From Dysidea avara (lineage: Eukaryota; Porifera; Demospongiae; Dictyoceratida; Dysideidae): DNA of 64,000 nucleotides. Positions 7,395-63,720 of the stretch are shown here, in pieces. The notes under the pieces were generated by a model. That model worked only from the letters and a program-made list of their open reading frames with translations, was not told the DNA's origin and searched no databases. Made by a program: the position numbers and the translations under genes. The stretch lies in the NCBI RefSeq assembly GCF_963678975.1, contig NC_089275.1, positions 26,411,977-26,475,976 of the forward strand, written 5' to 3'. Numbering within the stretch: the stretch's first letter is position 1; every line of letters begins with the position of its first letter.

Positions 7395-8632
7395 CATTCA
7401 GCTACGTTTACCATGTAGAGATTTCAGCTGCAAACAAATCACCCTGTAGAGAGTTTCAGTCATCCTGTAGAGAGATCAGCTAGAAGGATCACCTTGTAGA
7501 GAGTTTAACTGCAAACAAGTCACCCTGCAGATAGTTCAGCTATGAACAAATCACCCTGTAGAGAGATCAGCTAGAAGAAATCACCTTGTAGAAAATTCAG
7601 CTACAAAGAAACCACCCTGTAGAGAGTTCAGCTGCAAACAAATCATCTGTAGAGAGTTCAGCCAGAAACAAGTTCACCCTGTAGATCAGCTAGAAACAAG
7701 TCACCCCGTAGTGAGATCAGCTAGAAGAAATCACCTTGTAGAGAGTTCAGCTACAAAGAAACCACCATGTAGAGAGTTCAGCTGCAAACAAATCATCTGT
7801 AGAGAGTTCAGCCAGAAACAAGTTTACCCTGTAGAGAGATCAGCTAGAAACAAGTCACCCTGTAGAGAGATCAGCTACAAAGAAACCATCCTGTAGAGAG
7901 TTCAATTACAAACAGATAACCCTATAGAGATTTCATCTACAAGCAAGTCACCGTGTAGAGAGATCAGCTAGAAACAAGTCACCCTGTACAGAGATCAGCT
8001 ACAAAGAAACCATCCTGTAGAGAGTTCAATTACAAACAGATAACCCTATAGAGATTTCATCTACAAGCAAGTCACCGTGTAGAGAGATCAGCTAGAAACA
8101 AGTCACCCTGTAGAGAGATCAATTACAAACAGAAAACCCTATAGAGAGTTCAGCTAGAAACAAGTCACTGTGTAGAGAGATCAGCTAGAAATAAGTTATC
8201 CAGAAATCAGCTAGAAACAAGTCACCCTGTAGAGAGATCCGCTACAAAAAAATCATCCTGTAGAGAGTTCAATTACAAACAGACAACCCTATAGAGATTT
8301 CAGCTACAAACAAGTCACTGTGTAAAGAGATCAGCTAGAAACAAGTCATCCAGAGATCAGCTAGAAACAAGTCACCCTGTAGAGAGATCAACTAGAAACA
8401 AGTCGCCCTGTAGAGAGATCAGCTAGAAACAAGTCACTCCGTAGAGAGATCAATTACAAACAAAAAAAATCCTAGAGAGTTCAGCTAGAAACAAGTCACT
8501 GGTTAGAGAGATCGATCAGCTAGAAACAAGTCACCTTGTAGAGAGTTCGGCTACCAAGAAACCACCATGTAGAGAGTTCAGCTGCAAACAAATCACCCTG
8601 TAGAGAGTTCAGCTAGAAACAGACTATATCAC
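7395..8632 (+). repeat. 31-bp minisatellite array, part 1
   Basis: About 40 imperfect tandem copies of a 30-31 bp unit, GTAGAGAGWTCAGCTASAAA plus CAARTCACCCT. Units alternate between GATCAGCTAGAA and GTTCAGCTACAA variants. The array is interrupted at 8633-8905 by a retrotransposon tail and resumes briefly to about 8960. Open frames crossing it are by-products of the repeat. Confidence 0.85.
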
Positions 8633-8905
8633 CCACATCGTTTTATTCTACCAAATTCATCTACCCATTCATACCAACAGAGCTTTTTCTCCAGATCAAT
8701 TAAGGATTGGAACAACTTACCATCTTCCATCATTGAGAGCAACAATATTGACTCTTTTTCAGCGGAACTGCAAACATTGTATGGAACTCTATAACTGTAA
8801 TCTTTGTAACTACGTAGCTAAATTCATTTTATGATTGCTTTTTTTTCCTGAGCATATCAGCTGTGCTGTCTGCTCAGTAACAATAATAAAAAAAACAACA
8901 AATCA
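8633..8905 (+). pseudogene. 3' end of a non-LTR retrotransposon inserted in the array
   Basis: The frame SFFSRSIKDWNNLPSSIIES ends at a stop at 8792-8794. It is followed by a 3' UTR with TGCTCAGTAAC and an AATAATAAAAA tail, and then the 31-bp array resumes. C-terminus and tail match the fragment at 2970-3140. Confidence 0.65.
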
Positions 8906-10724: not shown

Positions 10725-11546
10725 ACAACTACCGGTACAAGTATTACATTACTCATTACCTTGCTGTTCCAGCTGGTTGTTTATAAGCGCATCAGCTGGT
10801 ATCCCAACTGGTCATCAGCTGGTCGTTCACTGCATGACGCCTGGAGCGCATATCCTGCACACAAAAGACACAGTTACAAACATTTAAACATACTTGTAAT
10901 GTTGTTGCTTACCAGTAAAGTGGCGCCTGGCCTCTCCGCGGACGTTTACTCAGGGCCGCCCACAGGGGAAGGCAACTGGGGCATTTTGCCCCGGGCCCCA
11001 GCCTGAAAGGGGCCCCAGGAGGCCCCATGAAGGGCCTGTCATGCGACAATTGGTCCCCCCAAAATCAGTCCCCCAGGACTAGTTAAAGCCGCGCTATATG
11101 GTCCCCCCGGACCACTTGAGACACTTCAACTTGTCCCCCCCGGACAACCTAGAGCGCCACGGTTGGTCCCCCTCTGCTACAAGTGGTCCCCCACGCTGAA
11201 TATGATCCAGGCGCGGCAAGCAACACGGCCGGATCAGTTTCTTCGTACAGCTTGTTTTTAAACTATAAAGCTACAGTACCAGTGATCGGGTATGAGGCTA
11301 CAGGCTGTGCCTTGTATGCTCGGCTCGAGGCTCGGCTAGGCCTGTGCTTCGTGGATTCTCAGCCATGATGCCGGTGATCAGTCTATGTTGTCAATTCACT
11401 ACTAATGTATTCACTGACATGCGTCATGCCAGGCTATATAGCTAGCCATAAAAGCGATGCAGCTAGCATAATTAATGTATGCCATGAAATAGCTAACTAG
11501 TTAGCAAAGTTTGCCAATATACATCAACAATTGTTACAGTCATTAG

Positions 11547-11993
11547 CTAATGTGTAAAGTCTTTACGTTGTTTGACACAATCAATACAGTTAAATTCATA
11601 AGAGGGTGCTGAAGGGTCATCCACAGTTACTCCTGAGCAGATTACATGCACCCACGCATTACAGTTACCACACTGGATCTACATACACAATAAATATACA
11701 TAAAGTTCTCACATGAATAATATATGTGTATAGCATACCCAGCGATCAGTATAATCTTCATGCTGAAAACTTTCTTCAGATCGTCCACACATGATGCAGC
11801 GCTCAGTCATGTCAACTGAATTTGAAACACACGTATATATGCACACTTTAACGCAGAGCAAATTACTTGAATTGGTGAGGAGTGCTGTGCCTATATCTAT
11901 TCTGGCTTTCTTCATATTCATTTGTAAAATGGCGTCTTCGTCGATACGGTTAAAATTTAACAATTGTTCAGCAATCTGTGTATAATACACAAA
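11547..11993 (-). other. C-terminal PHD finger of Ginger copy 1 (exons 17-18)
   Basis: CIMC, CGNC, WVHVIC and CIDC give the eight ligands C4-H-C3 of a PHD finger, split between two exons (donor after 11739, acceptor at 11678). The last residues are KQRKDFTH before TAG. PHD fingers usually read histone H3 tails, so a role in choosing insertion sites is possible but is inference. Confidence 0.75.
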
Positions 11994-12029
11994 CTTTATA
12001 GCCTTAGCTACAAAAGCGAGATGTTATAC

Positions 12030-12828
12030 CTTTAAACTCAAAACACCACAGTTGAAGCTGTCTCCTGGCTTTTGCACACCTTTCTTGAGCTGAATGAGCT
12101 CAAAATTGTCCAATGAGACGTTGTCTTGACCAACGCAGTTATATCTCATAGCAAAGAACCTTCTATGGAGCATATAAAACTAGGTGTAAAAGTGCATTGC
12201 ATCAATTTAGTTCACAGTGATGCACTGTATAATTATGTTAACAGTCAATGTTACAGTATTGAACATACTTCAAACCTGTGTATGCTCCACGTATGGCTCG
12301 CGATGGTCCAAGAGGATCGATGTAGTAAAACTTTTTTTCTTCCATGTTGATTGCCTACAGAGCAGCACAACAAGTGTATTGGTATCACCCTATGCAAATT
12401 GCTTACAATCAATATCCAGTGGTTTTCTCCACGATTGTACATTCCAACAATAAACACTTTGGTGCTTAGCGTCTCCTATAGTATGAATAAGCTAACTCCT
12501 CCACGTAGCATTTGTGATCTTACCTTGCTTAAAAGGTGCGATGATTTCCCAGATTTTGAGCGATTAACCCAGGCAGTGATGGTTTGTGACAAGACAGCAA
12601 AACTGTCATTCCTCAATTCAACTAGCATGCGTAAATATCCATTCACTATCTATAACATTAATTTTAGTGCATCAAATTTAGAGGTATATAATACAATGCA
12701 CTGACCTCATCATTTAACCAGTTATTTCCTTTCAAGTTGTGAAAGCTACCTTGATGTATAGCCAAATGTCCAAACCTAGCTTTAATTACATAGCACGGCT
12801 TTCTTTTCCAGATAGCTTTTAGCTGATC
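12030..12828 (-). other. Ulp1/SENP-like cysteine protease domain of Ginger copy 1 (exons 12-16)
   Basis: Exon 12 ends GNNWLNDE and exon 13 opens IVNGYLRMLVE, the family's substrate-groove WLND-E-x-I-N-x-Y motif. Exon 14 has NHWILI (catalytic His-Trp). Exon 15 has YYIDPLGPSR (catalytic Asp). Exon 16 has QKPGDSFNCGV (oxyanion-hole Gln and nucleophile Cys). All four catalytic positions of peptidase family C48 are present in order. The substrate is unknown; SUMO-like proteins are the usual targets of the family. Both copies keep these residues. Confidence 0.8.
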
Positions 12829-12875
12829 CTGTATGTATATATATGAGTCATATGTACCACAGCACAAAAACATAC

Positions 12876-14233
12876 ATAGGCTGTAAGTGGTATGATGCTT
12901 CCATTGTTGGCTCCGGCTGTATTAATCATTCCTGTTACTGCTGTAGACGTTGTAGCTGTTACGTTAGGTGTGGCTGTTATCTTGGATTCCACTGTCTCTG
13001 TTGTTGTCGCAATCATAGGTGCTACCACTGATGGTTCCGCTATTGTAGGAGGCTTTGTTACGGTGTTTTTCTGAAACTCCTCACATCTCTGTGTAATGGT
13101 AAGCACACAATAATTACAATAGCTGTCAAGGAATTATCACAACAAAATACAACCTTTATAAGCTTGCGACGTCGTCTCAATGGCTTAACTGAATTCGTAT
13201 CAGGACTATCAGAGAAATTCAGCTTTCTCTTGGTAACAATGTGCTTTGGTGGTGAGAATATCATATCAACAACCCTCTTTCCTATTGGAACTGTTGTGAT
13301 GTTTTTCCAGCTATCACAATTTACCTTTATCAGATGTAGGCTTTATTTTAAATTCATTGTGTTCCAGTTTTTGGCTGTAAATAGGTGATAGCGCAGGTGC
13401 ACTAAAACTGCCAAACTCTGGGAAGTAGCCTCCTGCTTGTTTGGGGGAACTGTAAACCAATGGGCAATTCTGAAAATAGACATTAGTAAGATATGTGAAG
13501 AACGAATTGGAGGAACTTCTAACCACATTAATAGCAACTGATACATTGTGCCCTTGCTCCTTATTCATTCGTACTAGATCTTTACAGTGAGTGATATCTT
13601 CCTCATCCCATCGTGATATCAAACTGGGATAGCTGGGTTCCTACTACATGTACTCATATAGAATTCCACGTGGGTGTATATAGTATGCTACAGTAGCTAT
13701 GTAACCAGCAAATCAGTGAGCTTATTAAAACTACTCAAAGTATGTATGCTGGCTGCACTACAACCATAGTTACCATGCTATCATCCATTTGGTCCAAAAT
13801 TTTGGTCTTACTATCTTCATCACACTGAGATGTCAAGATGGGATCCTATAACATGTACATGATATAAATATTACAGTATAGTATCAAATAATCTTACTTT
13901 ATCACTTTTGGTGGCACTAGGTTCATGTGAGATAATGGACACTGTTGGGTTGTGAGATTTTGAAGTATGTGTACAAGTATTGTGAGTAACAACTGATGTG
14001 TTGTCCTCCTCTATTTGGTCAGTCTTGATATTGTCATCATACTGGGATATCGAGTTGCATGGTTCCTATGTATTGCAAGATAATATTACATCAATTAACA
14101 TGCAGTTATAAGTTCTTACTTTGTCGCTCACACTGGCACTAGGATCATGTGAAATGGATCCTTTTCCACTTCTGACAGATGTGTTGCCACTATTATCACT
14201 TTCGTCATGAGATGTTGAGATACAACCAGTTGC
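12876..14233 (-). other. Repeated-exon linker and basic patch (exons 6-11)
   Basis: Exons 6, 7 and 8 (full length only in copy 2) each end with a serine/aspartate motif and SDK at the donor: HDPSASVSDK, HEPSATKSDK and YDPSSIMSDK. Exons 7, 8 and 9 each begin E/D-P. This suggests tandem exon duplication. Exon 10 carries a basic run PLRRRRKLIK that could be a nuclear localisation signal. Exon 11 is threonine/alanine-rich low complexity. No enzymatic motif is seen. Confidence 0.6.
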
Positions 14234-14291
14234 CTATACAATTATAACTTACATAAACACACACCTGTGTGCCGCACATACATGCATGTAC

Positions 14292-15289
14292 CTTCTTGGG
14301 TGGATAGAACAATTTCAAATGTGTACCATGGACTTTTAAAGTCTGTTTAATGTCATTGGTGTTTAGGATCTGAAAAATTCCTTTACCAACAGACTTCACA
14401 ACTTTATAAGGACCCTGCCACTTATAATCCATTTTTCCACCAGCCCGCTTTTTCCTCTTCATATCTTTTCTAAGAACCAATGCTCCAACTTTGAATGTAG
14501 CTGGGTTATGGTGCTTCCTGTCATACACTTGTTTTTGACGCTTTTGAGCGGTGAGTATGTTCTCCTTCACAATTTGTGCTACTTTTGTTTGATGAATGAA
14601 ATGTTGTTCTATAACTTCATCATTATGATCCAAGTGCTGTACGATATCTTCTTCTTTGGGAGATTGAATTTCAACAGGTAACAGAGCTTGTCGTCCAAAC
14701 ATCACAGCAAAAGGGCAATATTTTGATGACTCGTGTTTAGAAGTATTGTAAGCAAAAACACAGGTGTCTAAATAATCTTCCCAGAGTTCCTTTTTCTCAT
14801 TAACAAACTTTACCAGCATATTCTGGATGGTCTGGTTAAAACGCTCAACCAAGCCGTTTGCCTACAACAGACACATAATACAGTTGTATCTACTTAAAGT
14901 GCATAAGGTAAATATGCATATTATAGCACTATGCATTTCTTTACCATGCAACTATTAATGTTGATTAGTTACAACATAGCATATAATATAGGATAGTAGA
15001 GTAGTAGTTACCTGAGGATGGTAAGGGGGTAGTCAAACGGTGGTCAATTTTCATCATCTTCATCAATTTCTTGTCAAGGCGATTGTTAAATTCACTTCCT
15101 TGATCAGAAGTAATTACTCTTGGTAATCCAAACTGCATGAATAACTGTAAAGTATGCAATATGCAAGTAAATAACATGGTACACTTTGAATTGCATGGTT
15201 CTGGTGGCTGCTTGGGTTATAATGACTACTTCATTCTGTTAGTATTTAATTACATTTTTGCAGCACACTATAATACATTGCTTTGTCTT

Positions 15290-15337
<48 letters not shown>

Positions 15338-18162
15338 GTGTGTTCATGTATATGTGTGAACTTTTCCGAATGTATTAGTAGATTTTATTTTGCATTGTTT
15401 TATTGTTACTGCATGGAAACAGAATTAGATGCAACATACAAAAGTATTCTTTAAGTCAATTTGGACACCTGTGGATGTTATTAACTGCATGCACAGTTTC
15501 ACATTAATGACAAACATTCAAAGTACATGTATTACTTCTGCACGGTTATTCTGTATTCCGTAATCTCCCAAATATTGTGCAGTTGTTTTACATACTCCTA
15601 CATACAATAAGCAATCAAGTTGAAATTTTCAGCACCTAGCTGCTTCTCTACCATCTCTATCTAGCTACTTTTCTACCATCCAGTAACCAAGTCAAAATAT
15701 TTTGGTGATCATAGCATAGGATTGTAATAGGCTTAATTATAAAGGATCCTTTATGATGAAGCTATGACAAAATTAATAAGTTTCAGCAGCTGCGTGAAAG
15801 GATAGGAATACTAAAGCTAATCTATTGACATCCAAGTAAGCAAGATTCACATCTTGCTAAGATAAGTGATTTAGCCAAAGGTTTTCATACAGCTATACAA
15901 AATGTTTCAATTAGACGTAGAAAATGAATACTGGAATTGGTATGCTGGGAGAATACGGGTTAAACGGCCCACATAACTGGCTATACAACTCTTTTCTGAC
16001 CCATATTATATAGCTGCTTTAACAAACATATACTGTAGTTCTGTATTAGTCTATACGTCCAAGTGTTTGCAAACTTTAAGTAAATATGTGCATTATACAC
16101 ACAACATATATATATATATATACCTTAAACAAAGCACTAAACACGGTTGAGGATTCCTTATTGCTGCAAGCAAATGCCTGCACAAACTTGCTAAAGTAGT
16201 CTGCTACTGTCAGAATATAGCAATTTCCTTGAGTGGACTTGTGCTTTAGTGGTCCGACAAAGTCTATTCCAATGTGGTACCAAGTTGCTACAACTGAAAT
16301 AGGGTTAAGTTCTGGTACCCCTGTGTCCATTTTCTTTGTCATCCGTTGGCACACATCACATTCCTTCACCTTAGATGTATAGAAAAATGTGATGATGCAA
16401 GTTTATTACTGATGAAATATTTTGCATCTTGTGCAAAGGCATTATGTATACGTGCATGGTAAACCATTGTTCTTTACAACCTGAAAGCATATAAAATTAA
16501 TAGAGTTTTGCAGTACAGTTCTATAGCAACTCCAACATGTTGATTGATATAATTGGGTCATTTTTCATTTATGTAGCTATTTAGAAAACAGAATACTGCA
16601 GTTGCAAGTGGTATAGAAGCATGCAAGCAGGGTAAATTTTCAACATAATCATAATTATTATATATGTCTACAACATTATCATAAAGTAAAACTGACAAGA
16701 CCAAAAAGATGTAACAGGGGCATCATACTGTAATAAGCAACCAAATTACATAGCTGTTTGGTATACGTATTGTGAAAGCTGAGTATTAGTCTGCTATTCT
16801 AAATTGCAAGGCATCAACTGCATGATATACTTCCGCATATATGTATACCCCCAAGGTATAGCTGTATAGGTATGTACTTACAAATGCTTTTACATCCTTT
16901 CCTACTCCTTGCCACATGTAGCATTCTGTAATCCTTGCCTGTGTCTTCTTTGTCCCCATGTGACCTGATGTAGGGTGTACATGACAACCTCGCAATATCC
17001 GCTCTTTCTCTTTCGGGTCTAGTATGTATCTGACCTATACAAACCATACACTTGTATTACCAGTCACATACACTGCATTATAGTATGCTGAGTCAGCAGC
17101 TATATATGGCCCTACAGCTCTATACAACTTAGAATTAGAGAGTCAATAGGGTCTTGAACTAAAAGAGAAATTATCACACCAAGCAATTTGTCCATGTAGA
17201 CAACAGCAGGTCATGCAAACTAGGTGGCTACCAAGTACCGGAACCATAACATCCTGAACGAAAAGAACTTCTTATTTCAGTGGAAACTGAATCAGTTCTG
17301 TTTCATTTACCAGAGGTTGCACTATATGTATGTTTTGCATTGATTTTGCAAAAGTTCAGAAATACTCTATAACAGCCAGCCACTCCAACAGAACAGTGAC
17401 AATTTTGTTTATTCAGCTGTGCATAGCAATTCACTAAAATGGTCCAAAACTTTATTTCAGTTGACCCACCCTGTTTAAGTGAAAAGTTTGGAAGCCATAT
17501 AGTCACTGCTGCAAAAGTTTATTCCTGACTCATAGGTTTGCTTTCTGTACTCAGGGTTACTGTGATTAAACAAATAATAAATATGGCAGGGAGACAGAAA
17601 CATAACTATATGTTTAAGTTTTCATAGTACAATTATCTGGAAGCTAGCCAGATGTAATAAATAACAGAAAGGAACCATGGGACACGTGGTAGACTGTAAA
17701 TACAATGGCTTATACGTTGGCAGCTGCATTCGCAGTTTCTAAGTGTGACTGCTCTATTAGAGCAACTGACTGTTCTATTAGAGTAAGTGGCTGAGCCACT
17801 TTCTTTCTATACAATTATAGAAAGTAAGCCCGACTCGGGGAGTCTATGCCACGGCCTCCTAATGCTGGCTTCTCCACCTCCGTCCTATGCATACATGATG
17901 CATTATAATAGTAAATCTTTACCTTGGTCTTGTCCTGTTTGGTGTACAGAAGCGCTCCATCTTCTAAAGTGTACCTCATTGCCTTTCTTCTAATACACCT
18001 CTTCTCGTTCTTTGTACACTCTTGTCTGTACCTCTGCTCTTGAAGATACAGTAAAATATCCTCGTGCAGTTGTCTCTCAATCTCTCCACGACTATCTTCT
18101 GACTCCGTACATTGGCTGCTGCTACTGTGACCAGCAGGGTTAGCGGAGCCATCCGCCATCAT
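14292..18162 (-). other. Integrase half of Ginger copy 1 (exons 1-5)
   Basis: Exon 2 starts the zinc finger: CHVHPTSGHMG gives the two histidines (H-x6-H), and exon 3 supplies CDVC. The catalytic triad is D in IDFVGPL (exon 3), D in TSDQGSEF (exon 4) and E in NGLVERF (exon 5). The YHPQ/ANG junction falls exactly on the exon 4/5 splice. Exon 5 ends in WQGPYKVVKSVGKG, which resembles the GPY/F module of Ty3/Gypsy integrases. Only the TIRs and the absence of gag, protease, RT and LTRs separate this from an LTR retrotransposon. Confidence 0.85.
15292..15349. repeat. (GT)n microsatellite in intron 3 of Ginger copy 1
   Basis: A long GT run, clearly longer than in the same intron of copy 2 (31537-31570). 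It generates spurious Cys-Val open frames. Confidence 0.9.
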
Positions 18163-18519
18163 CCTTAAACTGAACTGTTACAAATACTGCTCTAAGCGTC
18201 CTTAAAGTGCGAGTTAAAGTGACGAGCCCTCAGCCGAATCAGTACAGCTATAAACTTGAATCAAGTAAAGTCACGCCAACAGTCGAGGCCAACAGTCGCT
18301 GTTCAGCAACTGACACGTGTTTAGACTGTAGATCAACCGTATCAATATAAAATATGGCTGAGTCGACAGCTGCCAGTCACCTTTGAACTCCTTTCGACAC
18401 GATCATCAAAGGCAGCGGTGTGCCGGAAAGCTACTGATAACATCCACATAACTGAGTTTTCCGGTAACGAACAAGTAACCCATATCTAACCGGCCTCTAT
18501 ACAGCTGTTTCATTGGGGG

Positions 18520-18639
18520 GACCAATTGAAGCAGGGCGGACCACTTGACGCAACTTCACATGGTCCGGCCGGACAGCCTGAAGTGCGCTAGTTGGTCCGG
18601 CCGGACCACTTGGGGCGGGGGACCATCTGTAGCGTGACA
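18520..18639. repeat. Subterminal GGTCC/GGACC repeats, right end of Ginger copy 1
   Basis: Repeated GGTCCGGCCGGACC blocks and single GGACCACTTG motifs are spaced by roughly 30 bp. The left subterminal region has GGTCCCCC repeats and a GGACCACTTGAG motif in the same style. Likely transposase-binding sites, by analogy with other DNA transposons. Confidence 0.6.
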
Positions 18640-19089
18640 GGCCCCCTGAATACCTGTTTAAAAGATCGATATACTCTAATAGAGCAGTCAGATCTAAATA
18701 CTCTAATAGAGCAGTCACAGTATTCTTCAGAGGAGCAGTGTAGCAAGCTTATAGATAAGGAGATGTGGTTGGTGATGGGTAGTTATTGTCATTGCCAGCA
18801 GGTTGTGACCTTTTTTTTTTTTTTTTTTTTTTTTAGTCTTCACCTTACAACTTGGGTGAAGGGCCCCACTTTAACTCTTTGCCCTGGGCCCCTTAATTTC
18901 TCTGGGCGGCCCTGCGTTTACTAATCTTCTCGTTCGAGCAATCTGTAATTAAACAAGGGCGTGGTGCCGGACGTTATATAGAATTACACGTACGATAAAG
19001 TCATCAGCACGAACAGGCGTACTTATTATACTTTTGTGCCTTCATTCACAGGCGAATCTATCCCCGCTTAGTTCATGTCTCTAGGCCTC

Positions 19090-26775: not shown

Positions 26776-27277
26776 GGCCTGTCATGCGACAATTGGTCCC
26801 CCCAAAATCAGTCCCCCCGGACTAGTTAAAGCCGCGCTATATGGTCCCCCCGGACCACTTGAGAAACTTCAACTTGTCCCCCCCGGACAACCTAGAGCGC
26901 CACGGTTGGTCCCCCTCTGCTACAAGTGGTCCCCCACGCTGAATATGATCCAGGCGCGGCAAGCAACACGGCCGGATCAGTTTCTTCGTACAGCTTGTTT
27001 TTAAACTATAAAGCTACAGTGCCAGTGATCGGGTATGAGGCTACAGGCTGTGCCTTGTATGCTCGGCTAGGCCTGTGCTTCGTGGATTCTCAGCCATGAT
27101 GCCGGTGATCAGTCTATGTTGTCAATTCACTACTAATGTATTCACTGACATGCGTCATGCCAGGCTATATAGCTAGCCATAAAAGCGATGCAGCTAGCAT
27201 AATTAATGTATGCCATGAAATAGCTAACTAGTTAGCAAAGTTTGCCAATATACATCAACAATTGTTACAGTCATTAG

Positions 27278-30200
27278 CTAATGTGTAAAGTCTTTACGTT
27301 GTTTGACACAATCAATACAGTTAAATTCATAAGAGGGTGCTGAAGGGTCATCCACAGTTACTCCTGAGCAGATTACATGCACCCACGCATTACAGTTACC
27401 ACACTGGATCTACATACACAATAAATATACATAAAGTTCTCACATGAATAATATATGTGTATAGCATACCCAGCGATCAGTATAATCTTCATGCTGAAAA
27501 CTTTCTTCAGATCGTCCACACATGATGCAGCGCTCAGTCATGTCAACTGAATTTGAAACACACGTATATATGCACACTTTAACGCAGAGCAAATTACTTG
27601 AATTGGTGAGGAGTGCTGTGCCTATATCTATTCTGGCTTTCTTCATATTCATTTGTAAAATGGCGTCTTCGTCGATACGGTTAAAATTTAACAATTGTTC
27701 AGCAATCTGTGTATAATACACAAACTTTATAGCCTTAGCTACAAAAGCGAGATGTTATACCTTTAAACTCAAAACACCACAGTTGAAGCTGTCTCCTGGC
27801 TTTTGCACACCTTTCTTGAGCTGAATGAGCTCAAAATTGTCCAATGAGACGTTGTCTTGACCAACGCAGTTATATCTCATAGCAAAGAACCTTCTATGGA
27901 GCATATAAAACTAGGTGTAAAAGTGCATTGCATCAATTTAGTTCACAGTGATGCACTGTATAATTATGTTAACAGTCAATGTTACAGTATTGAACATACT
28001 TCAAACCTGTGTATGCTCCACGTATGGCTCGCGATGGTCCAAGAGGATCGATGTAGTAAAACTTTTTTTCTTCCATGTTGATTGCCTACAGAGCAGCACA
28101 ACAAGTGTATTGGTATCACCCTATGCAAATTGCTTACAATCAATATCCAGTGGTTTTCTCCACGATTGTACATTCCAACAATAAACACTTTGGTGCTTAG
28201 CGTCTCCTATAGTATGAATAAGCTAACTCCTCCACGTAGCATTTGTGATCTTACCTTGCTTAAAAGGTGCGATGATTTCCCAGATTTTGAGCGATTAACC
28301 CAGGCAGTGATGGTTTGTGACAAGACAGCAAAACTGTCATTCCTCAATTCAACTAGCATGCGTAAATATCCATTCACTATCTATAACATTAATTTTAGTG
28401 CATCAAATTTAGAGGTATATAATACAATGCACTGACCTCATCATTTAACCAGTTATTTCCTTTCAAGTTGTGAAAGCTACCTTGATGTATAGCCAAATGT
28501 CCAAACCTAGCTTTAATTACATAGCACGGCTTTCTTTTCCAGATAGCTTTTAGCTGATCCTGTATGTATATATATGAGTCATATGTACCACAGCACAAAA
28601 ACATACATAGGCTGTAAGTGGTATGATGCTTCCATTGTTGGCTCCGGCTGTATTAATCATTCCTGTTACTGCTGTAGACGTTGTAGCTGTTACGTTAGGT
28701 GTGGCTGTTATCTTGGATTCCACTGTCTCTGTTGTTGTCGCAATCATAGGTGCTACCACTGATGGTTCCGCTATTGTAGGAGGCTTTGTTACGGTGTTTT
28801 TCTGAAACTCCTCACATCTCTGTGTAATGGTAAGCACACAATAATTACAATAGCTGTCAAGGAATTATCACAACAAAATACAACCTTTATAAGCTTGCGA
28901 CGTCGTCTCAATGGCTTAACTGAATTCGTATCAGGACTATCAGAGAAATTCAGCTTTCTCTTGGTAACAATGTGCTTTGGTGGTGAGAATATCATATCAA
29001 CAACCCTCTTTCCTATTGGAACTGTTGTGATGTTTTTCCAGCTATCACAATTTACCTTTATCAGATGTAGGCTTTATTTTAAATTCATTGTGTTCCAGTT
29101 TTTGGCTGTAAATAGGTGATAGCGCAGGTGCACTAAAACTGCCAAACTCTGGGAAGTAGCCTCCTGCTTGTTTGGGGGAACTGTAAACCAATGGGCAATT
29201 CTGAAAATAGACATTAGTAAGATATGTGAAGAACGAATTGGAGGAACTTCTAACCACATTAATAGCAACTGATACATTGTGCCCTTGCTCCTTATTCATT
29301 CGTACTAGATCTTTACAGTGAGTGATATCTTCCTCATCCCATCGTGATATCAAACTGGGATAGCTGGGTTCCTATTACATGTACTCATATAGAATTCCAC
29401 GTGGGTGTATATAGTATGCTACAGTAGCTATGTAACCAGCAAATCAGTGAGCTTATTAAAACTACTCAAAGTATGTATGCTGGCTGCACTACAACCATAG
29501 TTACCATGCTTGGCAATAAGCCTATACATTACTTACTTTGTCACTCATGATGCTGCTAGGATCATAAGAAATGGACGTTCTTGAAGAAGAGTCACTCTGA
29601 TCATGAGATGTACGAGCATGTAGGAGCACTGATATGTTGCCATCATCCATTTGGTCCAAAATTTTGGTCTTAGTATCTTCATCACACTGAGATGTCAAGA
29701 TGGGATCCTATAACATGTACATGATATAAATATTACAGTATAGTATCAAATAATCTTACTTTATCACTTTTGGTGGCTCTAGGTTCATGTGAGATAATGG
29801 ACACTGTTGGGTTGTGAGATTTTGAAGTATGTGTACAAGTATTGTGAGTAACAACTGATGTGTTGTCCTCCTCTATTTGGTCAGTCTAGATATTGTCATC
29901 ATACTGGAATATCGAGTTGCATGGTTCCTATGTATTGCAAGATAATATTACATCAATTAACATGTAGTTATAAGTTCTTACTTTGTCGCTCACACTGGCA
30001 CTAGGATCATGTGAAATGGATCCTTTTCCACTTCTGACAGATGTGTTGCCACTATTATCACTTTCGTCATGAGATGTTGAGATACAACCAGTTGCCTATA
30101 CAATTATAACTTACATAAACACACCTGTGTGCCACACATACATGCACGTACCTTCTTGGGTGGATAGAACAATTTCAAATGTGTACCATGGACTTTTAAA

Positions 30201-33200
30201 GTCTGTTTAATGTCATTGGTGTTTATAGTACGTTCACGTTGAGCTGAATCCTCAAAAACATTTAATAACTCATGGATGCAATTACACATGATCTTGAAAT
30301 TTGGCTCATTTGTAGTACTGCTTGATCCGCTAAAAATATTTTGAAATCTTTTTGTTCAAATGTTTGACATAATATTTACGGCCAATCAAAATTTTCACAA
30401 TACATTTCCTATGGAGAAGCCATATAAGTACAGTGTCCATTACAGCCCTTCCCCGAATTTGTAGTGAAGCCAAACCGTACATGTCTGTTGTTGACACCTT
30501 TGCTGTTCCCAATAATCATCTGGTTGGCTGAAATGTTAACTCTGTTGAGAAAAAATCCACTTTTAATTTTTAGCTGTTTTTCAGGATTCAGCTCAACGTG
30601 AACATACTATAGGATCTGAAAAATTCCTTTACCAACAGACTTCACAACTTTATAAGGACCCTGCCACTTATAATCCATTTTTCCAACAGCCCGCTTTTTC
30701 CTCTTCATATCTTTTCTAAGAACCAATGTTCCAACTTTGAATGTAGCTGGGTTATGGTGCTTCCTGTCATACACTTGTTTGTGACGCTTTTGAGCGGTGA
30801 GTATGTTCTCCTTCACAATTTGTGCTACTTTTGTTTGATGAATGAAATGTTGTTCTATAACTTCATCATTATGATCCAAGTGCTGTACGATATCTTCTTC
30901 TTTGGGAGATTGAATTTCAACAGGTAACAGAGCTTGTCGTCCAAACATCACAGCAAAAGGGCAATATTTTGATGACTCGTGTTTAGAAGTATTGTAAGCA
31001 AAAACACAGGTGTCTAAATAATCTTCCCAGAGTTCCTTTTTCTCATTAACAAACTTTACCAGCATATTCTGGATGGTCTGGTTAAAATGCTCAACCAAGC
31101 CGTTTGCCTACAACAGACACATAATACAGTTGTATCTACTTAAAGTGCATAAGGTAAATATGCATATTATAGCACTATGCATTTCTTTACCATGCAACTA
31201 TTAATGTTGATTAGTTACAACATAGCATATAATATAGGATAGTAGAGTAGTAGTTACCTGAGGATGGTAAGGGGTAGTCAAACGGTGGTCAATTTTCATC
31301 ATCTTCATCAATTTCTTGTCAAGGCGATTGTTAAATTCACTTCCTTGATCAGAAGTAATTACTCTTGGTAATCCAAACTGCATGAATAACTGTAAAGTAT
31401 GTAATATGCAAGTAAATAACATGGTACACTTTGAATTGCATGGTTCTGGTGGCTGCTTGGGTTATAATGACTACTTCATTCTGTTAGTATTTAATTACAT
31501 TTTTGCAGCACACTATAATACATTGCTTTGTCTTGGGTGTGTGTGTGTGTGTGTGTGTGCATGTGTGTGTTCATGTATATGTGTGAACTTTTCCGAATGT
31601 ATTAGTAGATTTTATTTTGCATTGTTTTATTGTTACTGCATGGAAACAGAATTAGATGCAACATACAAAAGTATTCTTTAAGTCAATTTGGACACCTGTG
31701 GATGTTATTAACTGCATGCACAGTTTCACATTAATGACAAACATTCAAAGTACATGTATTACTTCTGCACGGTTATTCTGTATTCCGTAATCTCCCAAAT
31801 ATTGTGCAGTTGTTTTACATACTCCTACATACAATAAGCAATCAAGTTGAAATTTTCAGCACCTAGCTGCTTCTCTACCATCTCTATCTAGCTACTTTTC
31901 TACCATCCAGTAACCAAGTCAAAATATTTTGGTGATCATAGCATAGGATTGTAATAGGCTTAATTATAAAGGATCCTTTATGATGAAGCTATGACAAAAT
32001 TAATAAGTTTCAGCAGCTGCGTGAAAGGATAGGAATACTAAAGCTAATCTATTGACATCCAAGTAAGCAAGATTCACATCTTGCTAAGATAAGTGATTTA
32101 GCCAAAGGTTTTCATACAGCTATACAAAATGTTTCAATTAGACGTAGAAAATGAATACTGGAATTGGTATGCTGGGAGAATACGGGTTAAACGGCCCACA
32201 TAACTGGCTATACAACTCTTTTCCGACCCATATTATATAGCTGCTTTAACAAACATATACTGTAGTTCTGTATTAGTCTACACGTCCAAGTGTTTGCAAA
32301 CTTTAAGTAAATATGTGCATTATACACACAACATATATATATATACCTTAAACAAAGCACTAAACACGGTTGAGGATTCCTTATTGCTGCAAGCAAATGC
32401 CTGCACAAACTTGCTAAAGTAGTCTGCTACTGTCAGAATATAGCAATTTCCTTGAGTGGACTTGTGCTTTAGTGGTCCGACAAAGTCTATTCCAATGTGG
32501 TACCAAGTTGCTACAACTGGAATAGGGTTAAGTTCTGGTACCCCTGTGTCCATTTTCTTTGTCATCCGTTGGCGCACATCACATTCCTTCACCTTAGATG
32601 TATAGAAAAATGTGATGATGCAAGTTTATTACTGATGAAATATTTTGCATCTTGTGCAAAGGCATTATGTATACGTGCATGGTAAACCATTGTTCTTTAC
32701 AACCTGAAAGCATATAAAATTAATAGAGTTTTGCAGTACAGTTCTATAGCAACTCCAACATGTTGATTGATATAATTGGGTCATTTTTCATTTATGCAGC
32801 TATTTAGAAAACAGAATACTGCAGTTGCAAGTGGTATAGAAGCATGCAAGCAGGGTAAATTTTCAACATAATCATAATTATTATATATGTCTACAACATT
32901 ATCATAAAGTAAAACTGACAAGACCAAAAAGATGTAACAGGGGCATCATACTGTAATAAGCAACCAAATTACATAGCTGTTTGGTATACGTATTGTGAAA
33001 GCTGAGTATTAGTCTGCTATTCTAAATTGCAAGGCATCAACTGCATGATATACTTCCGCATATATGTATACCCCCAAGGTATAGCTGTATAGGTATGTAC
33101 TTACAAATGCTTTTACATCCTTTCCTACTCCTTGCCACATGTAGCGTTCTGTAATCCTTGCCTGTGTCTTCTTTGTCCCCATGTGACCTGATGTAGGGTG

Positions 33201-34379
33201 TACATGACAATACCGCAATATCCGCTCTTTCTCTTTCGGGTCTAGTATGTATCTGACCTATACAAACCATACACTTGTATTACCAGTCACATACACTGCA
33301 TTATAGTATGCTGAGTCAGCAGCTATATATGGCCCTACAGCTCTATACAACTTAGAATTAGAGAGTCAATAGGGTCTTGAACTAAAAGAGAAATTATCAC
33401 ACCAAGCAATTTGTCCATGTAGACAACAGCAGGCCATGCAAACTAGGTGGCTACCAAGTACCGGAACCATAACATCCTGAACGAAAAGAACTTCTTATTT
33501 CAGTGGAAACTGAATCAGTTCTGTTTCATTTACCAGAGGTTGCACTATATGTATGTTTTGCATTGATTTTGCAAAAGTTCAGAAATACTCTATAGCAGCC
33601 AGCCACTCCAACAGAACAGTGACAATTTTGTTTATTCAGCTGTGCATAGCAATTCACTAAAATGGTCCAAAACTTTATTTCAGTTGACCCACCCTGTTTA
33701 AGTGAAAAGTTTGGAAGCCATATAGTCACTGCTGCAAAAGTTTATTCCTGACTCATAGGTTTGCTTTCTGTACTCAGGGTTACTGTGATTAAACAAATAA
33801 TAAATATGGCAGGGAGACAGAAACATAACTATATGTTTAAGTTTTCATAGTACAATTATCTGGAAGCTAGCCAGATGTAATAAATAACAGAAAGGAACCA
33901 TGGGACACGTGGTAGACTGTAAATACAATGGCTTATACGTTGGCAGCTGCATTCGCAGTTTCTAAGTGTGACTGCTCTATTAGAGCAACTGACTGTTCTA
34001 TTAGAGTAAGTGGCTGAACCACTTTCTACAATTATAGAAAGTAAGCCCGACTCGGGGAGTCTATGCCACGGCCTCCTAATGCTGGCTTCTCCACCTCCGT
34101 CCTATGCATACATGATGCATTATAATAGTAAATATTTACCTTGGTCTTGTCCTGTTTGGTGTACAGAAGCGCTCCATCTTCTAAAGTGTACCTCATTGCC
34201 TTTCTTCTAATACACCTCTTCTCGTTCTTTGTACACTCTTGTCTGTACCTCTGCTCTTGAAGATACAGTAAAACATCCTCGTGCAGTTGTCTCTCAATCT
34301 CTCCACGACTATCTTCCGACTCCGTACATTGGCTGCTGCTACTGTGACCAGCAGGGTTAGCGGAGCCATCCGCCATCAT
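27278..34379 (-). pseudogene. Ginger-like transposase gene, copy 2 (three lesions)
   Basis: Same exon set as copy 1, from ATG at 34379 to a stop at 27278. Exon 4 keeps frame here (G4 run at 31271-31274, YHPQ intact). Lesions are: the zinc-finger CDVC reads CDVR (TGC to CGC, 32572-32574), a MITE splits exon 5 at 30226-30609, and exon 7 has an in-frame TAG at 29886-29888. Exon 8 is full length (29707-29537, 57 residues ending SDK). The protease catalytic residues and PHD ligands are unchanged. Because the two copies are damaged at different places, a functional parent probably existed recently or still exists elsewhere. Confidence 0.8.
30226..30609. mobile_element. TA-flanked MITE inside Ginger copy 2
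   Basis: 384 bp with about 27-bp TIRs (left TAGTACGTTCACGTTGAGCT, right its reverse complement with one mismatch). TA flanks both sides (30224-30225 and 30610-30611), and copy 1 shows the unoccupied site at 14354-14356. TA duplication suggests the Tc1/mariner group. It splits exon 5 just after the GPY/F-like module. Confidence 0.85.
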
Positions 34380-34860
34380 CCTTAAACTGAACTGTTACAA
34401 ATACTGCTCTAAGCGTCCTTAAAGTGCGAGTTAAAGTGACGAGCCCTCAGCCGAATCAGTACAGCTATAAACTTGAATCAAGTAAAGTCATGCCAACAGT
34501 CGAGGCCAACAGTCGCTGTTCAGCAACTGACACGTGTTTAGACTGTAGATCAACCGTATCAATATAAAATATGGCTGAGTCGACAGCTGCCAGTCACCTT
34601 TGAACTCCTTTCGACACGATCATCAAAGGCAGCGGTGTGCCGGAAAGCTACTGATAACATCCACATAACTGAGTTTTCCGGTAACGAACAAGTAACCCAT
34701 ATCTAACCGGCCTCTATACAGCTGTTTCATTGGGGGGACCAATTGAAGCAGGGCGGACCACTTGACGCAACTTCACATGGTCCGGCCGGACAGCCTGAAG
34801 TGCGCTAGTTGGTCCGGCCGGACCACTTGGGGCGGGGGACCATCTGTAGCGTGACAGGCC

Positions 34861-49374: not shown

Positions 49375-49421
49375 TAAAGTAATAATAAATAAATAAATAA
49401 AATAGTTCAGTTGCAAGTAAT

Positions 49422-49745
49422 CTAATCCTAAACAGCCAAGCTGTAAAAAAAGAGTGCGGCCCTCAAAAAGGCTATGGTGAAAAAAGATGTGAAATCCAAG
49501 GTGGTGGCCAAGAAATGGCTGTGATGGTAGGTCAATGGTAAAAATCTTAATAACAACAATTCAGATGAATTTGATGCTGCTTGGTCTTGGCACAAAATTC
49601 ACCTGAATTGTCTTTATTAAAATTTTTACCATTAACCTACCATCACAGCCATTTCTTGGCCGCCACCTTAGATTTCACATCTTTTTTCACCATAGCCTTT
49701 TTGAGGGCCGCACTCTTTTTATACAGTTTGGCTGTTCTGGATTAG
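49422..49745. repeat. Foldback end of composite copy b
   Basis: About 125-bp arms starting CTAATCC...AAACAGCCAAGCTG and ending with their reverse complement GGATTAG. The central loop contains GATGCTGCTTGGTCTTGG. Sequence matches the 9201-9520 foldback. Confidence 0.75.
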
Positions 49746-49780
49746 ATTTCACTTCTTTTTGTATTTGTATACCCCAAACA

Positions 49781-50069
49781 GGGGCGGATCCAGAGTTTGG
49801 AAAGAGGGGGGACACCTTGCTGAAAAACAGTTGAAGACCAAAAAAAAAGGTCACAACAATAATAGCTAGTTATCCTTTACCAAATATATCACGTCTGTTA
49901 TGTAAAATAAAATCCTATTTATAGCTTCATAGGTAAGCTACACTGCCTCATGAACATTGTGACTGCTTTATTAGAGTAATCGACTGCTCTATTAGAGTAT
50001 CTCGATCTTGTATGCAATTTCTTGAGGGTGGGGAGCATTTGCCCCAAATGCCCCATCCTGGATCCGCCA
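49781..50069. mobile_element. hAT-like MITE (CAGGGGCGGATCCAG end)
   Basis: It starts CAGGGGCGGATCCAG and ends CTGGATCCGCCA. It interrupts text that is continuous in composite copy c near 57130. It contains two CTCTATTAGAG motifs and one GATC. The exact duplication is unclear (CCAAA on both sides). Confidence 0.55.
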
Positions 50070-50224
50070 TTGCCAAAGCTGGCCTATGGCCGGCTTTGGG
50101 ACTTTTTAAACCTATCTTTTTTCTTTACCACAGGAAGAAGAAAAGATGAAGCAGATTTTTAATAGTTTAAATATTTCTGATTTTATCAGCAAATGTACAA
50201 ATTATAATAGAATACATTTATTTA

Positions 50225-50790
50225 TTACAGAACTCTCCATGGTGGTTTCTTTGTAACTGAACTCTCTACAAGGTGACTTCTTCTAACTGCTCTTTCTACA
50301 GGGTGAATTGTTTGTAGCTGAACGATCTACAAGGTAACTTCTTCTAGCTGATCTCTCTACAGGGTGATTTGTTTGTAGCTAAATTCTGTACAGGTGATTT
50401 GTTTGCAGCTGAGCTCTTTACAGAATGGTTTCTTTGTAGCTGAACTCTCTACAAGGTGACTTCTTCTAGCTGATCTGTCTACAGGGTGATTGGTTTGTAG
50501 CTGAAATTTTTACAGGGTGGTTCGTTTGCAGCTGAACTCTCCACATGGTGGTTTCTTTGTAGCTGAACTCTCTACAAGGTGACTTCTTCTAGCTGATGTC
50601 TCTACAGGGTCACTAGTTTGTAGCTGAATTCTCTACATGGTGGTTTCTTTGTAACTGAACTCTACAAGGTAACTTCTTCTAGCTGATCTTTCTACAGGGT
50701 GGATTGTTTGTAGCTGATCTCTCTACAGGGTGACTTGTTTGTAGCTGATCTCTATACAGGTTACTTGTTTCTAGCTGATCTCTTGATTTC
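50225..50790 (-). repeat. 31-bp minisatellite array of composite copy b
   Basis: About 17 tandem imperfect units of the reverse complement GTAGCTGAACTCTCTAC with GTGAxTTGTTT. Same unit as at 7395-8960 and 55075-56965. Confidence 0.85.
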
Positions 50791-51640
50791 ACTTCAGGGT
50801 GGCTGCTCTATTAGGGTGACTGCTCTATTAGAGTATGTCGATCTTGCGCTTGCTACACCAAGTTGGATTTCGTGTTATAACTCCGTGGCTTTAAGTCTGA
50901 TTCTTCAACACCATTGAAGAGCCTTTCTAAGATGATTACTCCATCTGTACAGTGATTTTCATAGCTTTACCCCTAGCAGTTTTTCTGGTAGGCGTGGCAG
51001 GTAGTCGTTTTTTATTAGCTAATCTCCATTGCGTAATAGTTACACACTGTTGGTTTTTTCGTTGTATCTTCCTGGTTTTTAGCTCGATTTTTTCAAACCA
51101 CAAAAGGTTTGAGGTTCAATAGTTAACCTATTCACCCACCGATTTTCAGCTTCTTCCCATACGCGGTTTACCCTGTAGGCGTGACAACATATTGGTGTTA
51201 TTTTTCGTGAATAATTGCTCATAACTCTTTGCCTTTTTATCGTATTCCAGCCAAAGTAGGTACCAAGATGCACCTTTATACCCCTCCCCCCCCCCCCCCC
51301 CTTCTGTGTACCACATTTCAAGGCAATTGGATATGGCGTTCGCGTGTTATAGCAGTTTTTGTAAGTGTGCGACAAGAGGAAGAAAAAACGAAGAAACTAA
51401 GCCAATTTTTGAAGTCGCATATCTCGGGAACACTTGAAGCGATTTCACTCAAATTTGGAATCTGGAGTGCTGAAGTTGGAGGGCATGTTCACAGCAAAAA
51501 TCGTCTTGTTTCATCAAGGCAGCACAGAGCTACGGAGGTGCGAAAATTGCGTTTTCTTTCTTCCTTTCAATATACTCACGGGTGTTGCGCGCCGGCTTCT
51601 TGGGCCGCACAACACACTACCGCGTGTCTTGATATGTAAT

Positions 51641-55074: not shown

Positions 55075-56965
55075 TTATTCTGTAGGGAGTTCAGCTGCAA
55101 ACAGTTAATCTTATAGACAGTTCAGCAAGAAGACAGTCACCATGTGGAGAGTTAAGCAAATATACCACTATAGAAATTCAGAACATTACAAGTCACACTG
55201 AAGAAAGTTCAGCTATAAACAAGTCATGCACTGTGTAGAGAATTCAGCTACAATTAAGTCACTCTCTAGAGAATTCAGTTACACAGAATTCAGATACACA
55301 CAAGTCACTGTGGAGAGAGTTCAGCTACAAACAGATTACCTGTAGAGAAATCGGCTACAAACAAATCAACCTGCAGAGAGATCAGCTATATACACAAAAA
55401 TCAACTTGTAGAGAGATCAGCTACAAACAAATCACCCTGTAGAGAGATCAGCTAGAAACTAGACACAAAGTAAGGAGTTCAGCTACAAGCAAATTACCCT
55501 GTAGAGAGTTCATCTACAAACAAATCAACCTGTAGAGCAATCAGCTAGAAACAAATCACCCTGAAGAGAGGTCAGCTACAAAAAATCACCCTGTAGAGAG
55601 ATCAGCTAGAAACAAATCACCCTGAAGAGAGGTCAGCTACAAACAAATCAACCTGCAGTGAGATCACCTACAAAAAAGCACCTTGTACAGAGTTCAGCTA
55701 CAAACAAATTACCCTGTAGAGAGATCGGCTACAAACAAATCAACCAGTAGAAAGATCAGCTACACACAAATCAACTTGTAGAGAGATCAGCTACAAACAA
55801 ATTACCCTGTAGAGAGATCGGCTGCAAATTAATCAACCTGCAGAGAGATCAGCTACACACAAATCAACTTGTAGAGAGATCAGCTACAAACAAATCACCC
55901 TGTAGAGAGATCAGCTAGAAACTAGATACAATGCAAGGAGTTCAGCTACAAGCAAAATCACCCTTTAGTGAGTTCAGTTACAAACAAATCAACCTGCAGT
56001 GAGATCACCCACAAAAACGCACTTGTACAGAGTTCAGTTACAAACAAATCACCCTGTAGAGAGATCAGGTAGAAGAATTCACCTTGTAGAGAGTTCATTT
56101 ACAAAGAAACCATCATACAGAGAGTTCAGCTACAAAGAAATTACCCCGTGGAGAGTTCAGCTAGAAGAAGTCACCTTGTAAAGAGTTTAGCTACAAAGAA
56201 ACCATCATGTACAGAGTTCAGCTACAAAGAAACCACCTGTACAGGATTCAACTACAAACAAATCACCCTGTATAGAGATCAGCTAGAAGAAGTTACCTTG
56301 TAGATAGTTCAGCTACAACAATTCACCCTGTAGAAAGATCAGCTAGAAGAAGTCACCTTGTACAGTGTTCAGTTACAAAGAAACCATCATGTAGAGAGTT
56401 CAGCTGCAAACAAATCACTCTGTAGAGAGTTCAGCAACAAAGAAACCGCCATGTAGAGAGTTCAGTCTCATACAAACCACCTTGTAGAGAATTCGACTAC
56501 AACAAATCACCCTGTAGAGAAGAAGTTACCTTGTAGAGAGTTCAGCTACAAAGAAACCACCATGTAGAGAGTTTAGCTGCAAACAATTCACCTGTAGAGA
56601 GTTCAGCTAGAAACAAATCACCCCGTAGAGAGATCAACTGGACGAAGTCACCTTGTAGAGAGTTCAGCTACAAAGAAACCATCACGTAGAGAGTTCAGCT
56701 GCAAACAAATCACCCTGCAGAGAGTTCAGCTACAAAAAAATCACCCTGTAGAGAGTTCAGCTAGACGAAGTCACCTTATAGAGAGTTCAGCTACAAAGAA
56801 ACCATCATGTAGAGAGTTCGGCTATAAAGACACCACCATGTAGAGAGTTTAGCTGCAAACAAATCACCTGTTACAGAGAGTTCAGCTACAAAAAAACCAT
56901 CCTGTATATAGTTCAGCTACATTTCAAGTCACCCAGTAGAGAGATCAGCTGCAAAAAAAATCCTG
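55075..56965 (+). repeat. 31-bp minisatellite array of composite copy c
   Basis: About 55-60 imperfect tandem units (GTAGAGAGWTCAGCTACAAA plus CAAATCACCCT). It has local higher-order repetition, e.g. the blocks around 55330-55450 and 55700-55920 are near-duplicates. Confidence 0.85.
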
Positions 56966-63379: not shown

Positions 63380-63720
63380 GACATACCAAAGTAGAGAAAT
63401 GTGAAGTTTGAATCATGCAACAGATACGGATGCCATTATGGAGGATCTGGGAGTATGTCCCCAGAGCTGTTTTCAGATTTTAAGTATTCTGAGATAGGAT
63501 TTTACACTATTAATTTTCATTGTGTGGTTACAATTAAATTAAATAGCCACTTACAGTTTTTAAGAGATATAAAATGTGGCTGCCCTATTAGAGTGGTTGA
63601 CTGCTCTATTAGAGTAACTCAATCTGAACCTTAGTACCAATAATTACTTGAATATACATACTTATGATCTGTTTCTGGAAACCTCAGAACCTCCCTCCAG
63701 AGCTGCCCCTGGTGATGGCA
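63380..63720 (+). repeat. Dispersed repeat, related to 25540-26030
   Basis: Shares TTACAGTTTTTAAG, CCTATTAGAGTGGTTGACTG and TGTTTCTGGAAACCTCAGAA-like landmarks in order with the earlier copy. Contains two CTATTAGAG motifs. Confidence 0.5.

Follow-up and report, generated by a model that had tools for sequence, protein, structure and literature searches.

Ginger1 elements are DNA transposons that stand very close to Gypsy elements in their integrases. The published definition gives them terminal inverted repeats (TIRs) of ∼ 40–270 bp, TGTNR termini, a 4-bp target-site duplication (TSD), an H2C2 finger, a D-D-E core, GPY/F, a C-terminal OTU or Ulp1 domain and a YPYY motif (Y/F-P-Y/F-Y/F), and in 112 Hydra elements the targets were CCGG (75%) or CCGT/ACGG (24%) (PMC2836005). 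One of them, Ginger1-9_HM of Hydra magnipapillata, has already been published with a DDE integrase-type transposase, an Ulp1 protease and a PHD finger (Bao, Kapitonov and Jurka, 2010; PMC2836005). Here we analyse 64,000 nucleotides of the sponge Dysidea avara (contig NC_089275.1, positions 26,411,977 to 26,475,976 of the forward strand; hereafter the window, whose own numbering is used throughout), which hold two copies of an element with the same set of domains. A preliminary description of this DNA proposed a spliced Ginger-like transposon and remarked, correctly, that such accessory domains are known in Ginger1. We conclude that the two copies very probably represent a DNA transposon of the Ginger1 kind, with a target preference, a presumed activity in trans and a probable history of intron loss that are set out below.

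Results

Copy 1 (7603 bp, 11037–18639), recognized by its termini, TSD and Pfam domains, and copy 2 (8077 bp, 26780–34856) both carry their gene on the minus strand (34376–27278 in copy 2); they are 99.6% identical, with 33 mismatches over 7560 aligned bases when indels are disregarded. Both have inverted termini of the form TGTCA...TGACA (5′ end TGTCATGCGACA, 3′ end TGTAGCGTGACA). The TIR is imperfect, ∼ 160 bp long and rich in GGTCC/GGACC (in copy 1, 11037–11196 on the plus strand and 18480–18639 on the minus strand). GGCC borders each copy (11033–11036 and 18640–18643 for copy 1, 26776–26779 and 34857–34860 for copy 2) and the flanking DNA differs between the two, so that the TGT termini and 4-bp duplication of the preliminary description are borne out.

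The Dysidea avara genome (550.8 Mb) contains at least 30 left ends of this family at 94–100% identity and at least ten more at ∼ 84%, both counts being lower bounds from 40 of 165 candidates scored. Exon 5, an integrase exon, has at least 29 matches, and left end, right end, integrase exons and Ulp1–PHD exons co-occur at many sites. These matches, together with a perfect duplication in 27 of the 29 copies with both ends read, place the element beyond chance. The window family is a young DNA transposon with ∼ 30 near-identical copies or more.

Target sites were compared from 30 left and 29 right ends; one segmental-duplicate pair was merged, giving 26 independent sites. A matching duplication was absent from two of the 29 copies (L024, and L037, which has a truncated end). 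The duplicated bases are GNNC at 25 of the 26 sites and TATC at the remaining one, and nowhere CCGG. GGCC, which the preliminary description had taken as the target, was rejected, as other copies show GNNC. The longer palindrome GNGNNCNC fits 18 of the 26 sites; the second base before the duplication is always G or A (G in 21) and the second base after it is C in 24. As GNNC occupies 3.5% and GNGNNCNC 0.13% of positions in the window, the binomial tails are 1e-35 and 3e-46 respectively, for a pattern that was picked after the sites were seen. Within the portions covered of the Ginger literature (sponges, PHD, Ulp1, 4-bp TSD, introns; Repbase lay outside the scope) we came across no mention of this Dysidea family or of targets of the GNNC type, and the main text of the Dysidea avara genome paper contains neither 'transpos' nor 'ginger' (PMC12909245).

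The gene is predicted to be spliced, with AG/GT at all internal exon borders and consistent phases once a frameshift in exon 4 is allowed for. This much had been recognized before, but the exons number 20 rather than 18. Exon 1 (17923–18159, with a further in-frame ATG at 18162) was aligned by eye with an Ephydatia stretch bearing YPE...LLY, whose proline is replaced by Arg in the window family and in protein P0123 of a second Dysidea family. Exon 2 (16882–17034) encodes the first half of the H2C2 finger, and exon 3 (16124–16369) its CxxC and the first catalytic Asp (16264–16262). The second catalytic Asp (15105–15103) lies in exon 4 (15012–15144), and exon 5 (14292–14861) supplies the catalytic Glu (14846–14844) and a GPY module, read directly and by motif only. 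Exons 6 (14120–14233), 7 (13898–14065) and 8 (13774–13845; 171 nt in copy 2) encode a linker; they share stretches of 42–48 bases at their 3′ ends that are 73–80% alike, and look like tandem duplicates. Exons 9 (13524–13640), 10 (13325–13469), 11 (13154–13281) and 12 (12876–13088) follow, the acceptor of exon 11 being placed, probably correctly, after the deposited protein P0121. The Ulp1 domain begins in exon 13 (12706–12828) and runs through exon 14 (12524–12649); its His (12421–12419) is in exon 15 (12407–12475), its Asp (12318–12316) in exon 16 (12269–12354), and its Gln (12074–12072) and Cys (12050–12048) in exon 17 (12030–12162). After exon 18 (11867–11975) the PHD finger is divided between exon 19 (11739–11815) and exon 20 (11547–11678), which ends with the stop codon. 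With exons 4 and 8 read from copy 2, and exon 11 beginning as in P0121, the coding sequence measures 3249 nt, or 1082 residues and a stop. Sixteen of the 19 introns are in phase 0, and their median length is 56 nt when the exon 8/9 intron is measured in the damaged copy 1. A dispersed short motif around CTCTATTAGAG is found in the first intron of each copy and at other places in the window (17744–17794, 33967–34017, 49958–50008 and 63575–63625).

Exons 1–5 of copy 2, in which the frame is kept up to within exon 5, score 61.2 bits for Integrase_H2C2 and 53.3 bits for rve in Pfam; exons 5–20 of copy 1 score 36.3 bits for Peptidase_C48 (cut-off 20.7) and 25.0 bits for PHD (cut-off 24). All four domains foreseen for the joined exons thus exceed their curated cut-offs. 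Their order in the single minus-strand gene is H2C2 finger, D-D-E integrase core, GPY module, Ulp1 protease and PHD finger. PDB matches for the Ulp1 part include SENP2, SENP1 and yeast Ulp1 (best E 3e-8), and for the PHD part the PHD fingers of MLL and KDM5B (∼ 1e-4). All four Ulp1 positions (His, Asp, Gln, Cys) can be read in copy 1, in agreement with the complete set reported earlier, and by homology would form the catalytic set. The domain is probably a SUMO/ubiquitin-like protease and the PHD finger probably a reader of histone tails; as proposed in the preliminary description, the two could help the element to act on chromatin. Neither the gene nor any of ten other open frames that were scanned gave a match to reverse transcriptase or RNase H.

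Among the 120 integrase relatives listed of 192 hits, the top-scoring are Ephydatia muelleri proteins, with 45–49% identity over 80–93% of the query in the best rows; identity reaches 53% over 69% of the query. Precomputed Pfam assignments for the same 120 give PHD in six, Ulp1 in two and OTU in one. A Ulp1–PHD query found four proteins: P0121 (91% identical) and P0122 (99% over half of the query), both of the window family, P0123 (47%), of the second Dysidea family, and P0124 (45%). P0121, a deposited Dysidea model, spans the integrase core through Ulp1 to PHD, and an intronless cousin described below carries all three regions between TIRs, which speaks for the earlier proposal that they would form one protein.

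An integrase tree of 40 rows (four of 44 with ≤ 180 residues, L002, L006, L008 and P0033, were dropped) has a branch with support of 100/99 that separates the 18 Ginger-type rows from the rest, among which are all 14 Gypsy rows. We assigned these labels by the name of the source, the Pfam domains and the genome of each row; eight rows are unlabelled, and Repbase Ginger1 is outside the set. The Ginger-type clade holds the window integrase together with sponge and Hydra proteins. Under these labels the integrase does not fall among LTR (long terminal repeat) retrotransposons, a placement that the preliminary description had named as contrary to its proposal. Several other features agree with Ginger1: a TIR within the published length range, TGTCA as a form of TGTNR, a 4-bp TSD in 27 of 29 copies, an H2C2 finger and D-D-E core followed by GPY/F (the latter by motif only), and a C-terminal Ulp1 domain by Peptidase_C48 and SENP matches. 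Ginger2/TDD, which has no GPY/F and AT-rich RTATAY targets, was rejected in view of the GPY module and the GNNC targets.

Neither window copy is the fully readable gene of the preliminary description. Copy 1 has one extra G in exon 4 (15025), which causes the frameshift, and lacks 131 bp of exon 8. This deletion removed the donor seen in copy 2, so the usable exon 8 border in copy 1 is an accident. The extra G had been noted before; neither copy 2 nor any of the seven other copies with an aligned exon 4 has it, and one of these seven has lost 3 bases at that place. Copy 2 has a stop in exon 7, a Cys-to-Arg change of a zinc ligand in the H2C2 finger and, within exon 5, a 386-bp insert (30224–30609) resembling a miniature inverted-repeat transposable element, with ∼ 45-nt terminal inverted repeats and TA at its borders.

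Defective copies recur in groups. Three of the at least 29 exon-5 matches stop at residue 284, where the copy 2 insert sits (the insert is direct in copy 2, appears in L041 as an alignment gap of similar length at the same place, and is inferred in the third), and five start at residue 137, past the catalytic Glu. The duplications are GGCC, GAAC and GGGC in the first group, and GTAC, GATC, GAAC, GGCC and GGAC in the second. Because they differ within each group, the defective copies appear to have been mobile, presumably with help in trans. The ten left-end relatives at ∼ 84% (L047–L056) share ∼ 158 bp of the left and up to ∼ 132 bp of the right terminus with the window element (∼ 84–88%) and measure 3–5.5 kb where both ends were located. 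They gave no protein match to Dysidea transposases, and the longest open frames in five checked are 83–134 residues. All ten were fetched and eight compared: six have perfect duplications, five of them GNNC and one GACG.

The P0123 family was located in the genome exon by exon. When the window-gene introns are mapped onto it by alignment, many of them lie close to breaks between its matches. Its introns are deduced from these break points, and the linker (exons 6–9) aligns too poorly to be judged. A further Ginger-type element, on contig C12 (1142100–1145700; L083, L081 and L082), has no introns. It is 3601 bp (∼ 3.6 kb) long, its TIRs start with TGTAAC and end with GTTGACA, and GCTC is duplicated on both sides. 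Within it, integrase, linker, Ulp1 and PHD follow one another in 2.65 kb without introns, bearing frameshifts and stops, and the matches to P0123 residues 4–932 adjoin without DNA gaps. An ordinary processed pseudogene was considered for this locus and rejected: the TIRs and the GCTC duplication bracket it, and there is no A run of ≥ 8 between the TIRs.

A 1083-bp Ulp1–PHD stretch of the C12 element finds one-piece matches at six loci including itself (95–100% over 984–1083 query bases; 95–99% at the five others, likewise intronless), TIRs being established at C12 among the six. Twenty copies of the multi-exon family match it in pieces only; further short matches were left unclassified. Pieces of the P0123 family meet at query positions 486, 548, 642 and 877, the last match ends at 957, and two of the pieces contain an additional 53 and 48 bases. 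Window-gene introns map to 486, 555, 641, 877 and 951 (641 and 877 after adding intron phases), and two more, at 360 and 768, fall within the pieces that have the additional bases. By this alignment, the P0123 family has equivalents of six of the seven window introns in the stretch, the seventh is consistent with one, and the six contiguous loci are without them where matched. In a 20-row integrase tree the intronless sequence, to which P0022 is identical, pairs with P0123 as its sister (100/100) and stands well apart from the window family. The shared break points and this sister grouping point to a common ancestor that had introns and to an intronless branch that lost them together. In the simplest reading, the introns predate the split of the window and P0123 families and relatives of the P0123 family lost them. 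The pattern suggests that the loss was joint, through reverse-transcribed spliced mRNA replacing the gene.

Apart from the transposon, the window contains a 31-bp tandem repeat in large arrays of dozens of copies (7397–8641 and 55082–56910), with inverted counterparts at ∼ 50210–50820, and an inverted repeat (49419–49748) with 159-nt arms that are 92% complementary and 12 nt apart.

Discussion

We propose that the spliced protein of ∼ 1082 residues would bind the TIRs and that its D-D-E integrase core would join the element's ends to the target with a 4-base stagger at the palindrome GNGNNCNC, leaving GNNC duplications. The transposase would also work in trans, on defective relatives and on those without coding capacity. 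An intron-rich ancestor would have existed before the window and P0123 families split, and the intronless relatives of the P0123 family would have arisen via reverse-transcribed spliced mRNA, at least one of them lying between TIRs. With some reserve, we favour a still stronger statement, that a lineage with 19 introns has a branch in which the gene was replaced in one step by a copy of its spliced mRNA and stayed mobile between TIRs, and that the integrase also shifted from the Hydra CCGG to the 8-bp palindrome GNGNNCNC.

Several observations weigh against the main proposal. The published Ginger1 rule of CCGG or CCGT/ACGG is followed at none of the 26 independent sites; as that rule rests on the 112 Hydra elements, we regard the window family as a variant of Ginger1 and not as a plain member. 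Nine copies were checked exon by exon, seven fetched and two in the window (the internally deleted L042, 1.2 kb, was excluded). Eight are broken. In the only one with all exons open and GT–AG borders, the left end is short of its first 15 bases and the flanks show no matching duplication. Variable sites among the nine, which are few, are spread evenly over codon positions, giving no sign of recent selection on the protein. In the protease, Gln and Cys are separated by two more residues than in P0123 and P0124; P0124 carries Asn in place of the Asp. P0121 is without exon 15, which carries the His, and P0122 ends after exon 16, before Gln and Cys, so that the protease may be dispensable or the deposited models may be wrong. 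An AlphaFold2 model of the relative P0123 (alignment A1) was poor (predicted local distance difference test, pLDDT, 39.9) and was set aside.

Could the locus instead be the degenerate remnant of a Gypsy/LTR retrotransposon, its integrase lying next to Ulp1 and PHD exons that belong to the host? Resemblance to Gypsy extends over the integrase core and the GPY module, and the Dysidea genome is rich in H2C2 integrases (150 matches scored). Yet the terminal repeats are inverted and not direct, the frames scanned gave no reverse transcriptase or RNase H match, every Gypsy-labelled row falls outside the 18-row clade, and ends, integrase and Ulp1–PHD exons recur together at many sites. We consider such a remnant highly improbable. 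The inverted termini, the 4-bp duplication, the lack of those matches in the frames scanned and the grouping with sponge and Hydra proteins support a Ginger-type DNA transposon over an LTR element, as the preliminary description held. Equally little credence attaches to a domesticated host gene family, an idea that draws on the introns and similar integrase domains of the Ginger1-derived genes Gin-1, Gin-2 and Imagin (PMC2836005; PMC12863088): near-identical copies lie at many sites, 27 of 29 with perfect TSDs, and eight of the nine examined are broken.

A separate question is the direction of intron change. Were the intron-free state ancestral, both intron-rich families would have gained introns, independently or together. 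Some Hydra Ginger1 families are intronless (PMC2836005), and the 16 phase 0 introns of 19 could reflect a burst of gain. We judge this unlikely: the intronless sequence is sister to P0123 and lies a long way from the window family, yet both intron-rich families break alike as far as checked, so that gain would need many coincident insertions. Loss from an intron-rich ancestor is the reading that we retain.

We know of no test of what the Ulp1, OTU and PHD parts of Ginger1 do, although no search for such tests was made. With ∼ 30 copies of a young family, a clear target motif and intron-free relatives in one genome, this sponge offers a test system for target choice; the same family would allow one to test whether the protease and PHD parts are required, as well as the RNA-mediated rewriting of a DNA transposon.

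Among described elements, Ginger1-9_HM resembles the window element in its DDE integrase-type transposase, its Ulp1 and PHD parts and the presence of introns, and has a TIR of 120 bp; compared by description only, it is 3,758 bp long with two introns, against 7.6–8.1 kb and 19 introns here (PMC2836005). As a group, Hydra Ginger1 elements use CCGG/CCGT, whereas the window family uses GNNC (PMC2836005). Ginger1-5_HM and the host genes Gin-1 and Gin-2 likewise have an intron-bearing Ginger1 transposase. Three of the four introns of Ginger1-5_HM are common to Gin-1/Gin-2, and no entry in the 2010 Ginger1 table exceeds four, as opposed to 19 in the window gene (PMC2836005). In Ephydatia muelleri, six proteins deposited without a functional name, P0004, P0007, P0008 and P0010 with PHD and P0017 and P0034 with Ulp1 by precomputed Pfam, are 42–49% identical over the matched integrase part, and in some of them Ulp1- and PHD-like parts could be aligned. 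Closer to home, the second Dysidea family (P0123, 932 residues) has the domain order of the window family and a readable Ulp1 His-Asp-Gln-Cys set, is 47% identical to it over the queried Ulp1–PHD region and breaks at the same intron positions where checked. Loss of introns, even of all of them, by reverse transcription has been proposed for a DNA transposon before, in plant CACTA transposases, as we propose here; those have one to six exons, compared with a 20-exon gene and intronless relatives within one animal genome (PMC4158355). If wholesale loss mediated by reverse transcription holds, the present case would be larger than CACTA, in an animal, and would mean that a DNA transposon passed through an RNA stage. 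The domain set being shared with Ginger1-9_HM, what sets the window element apart is its target rule, the number of its introns and its intronless relatives.

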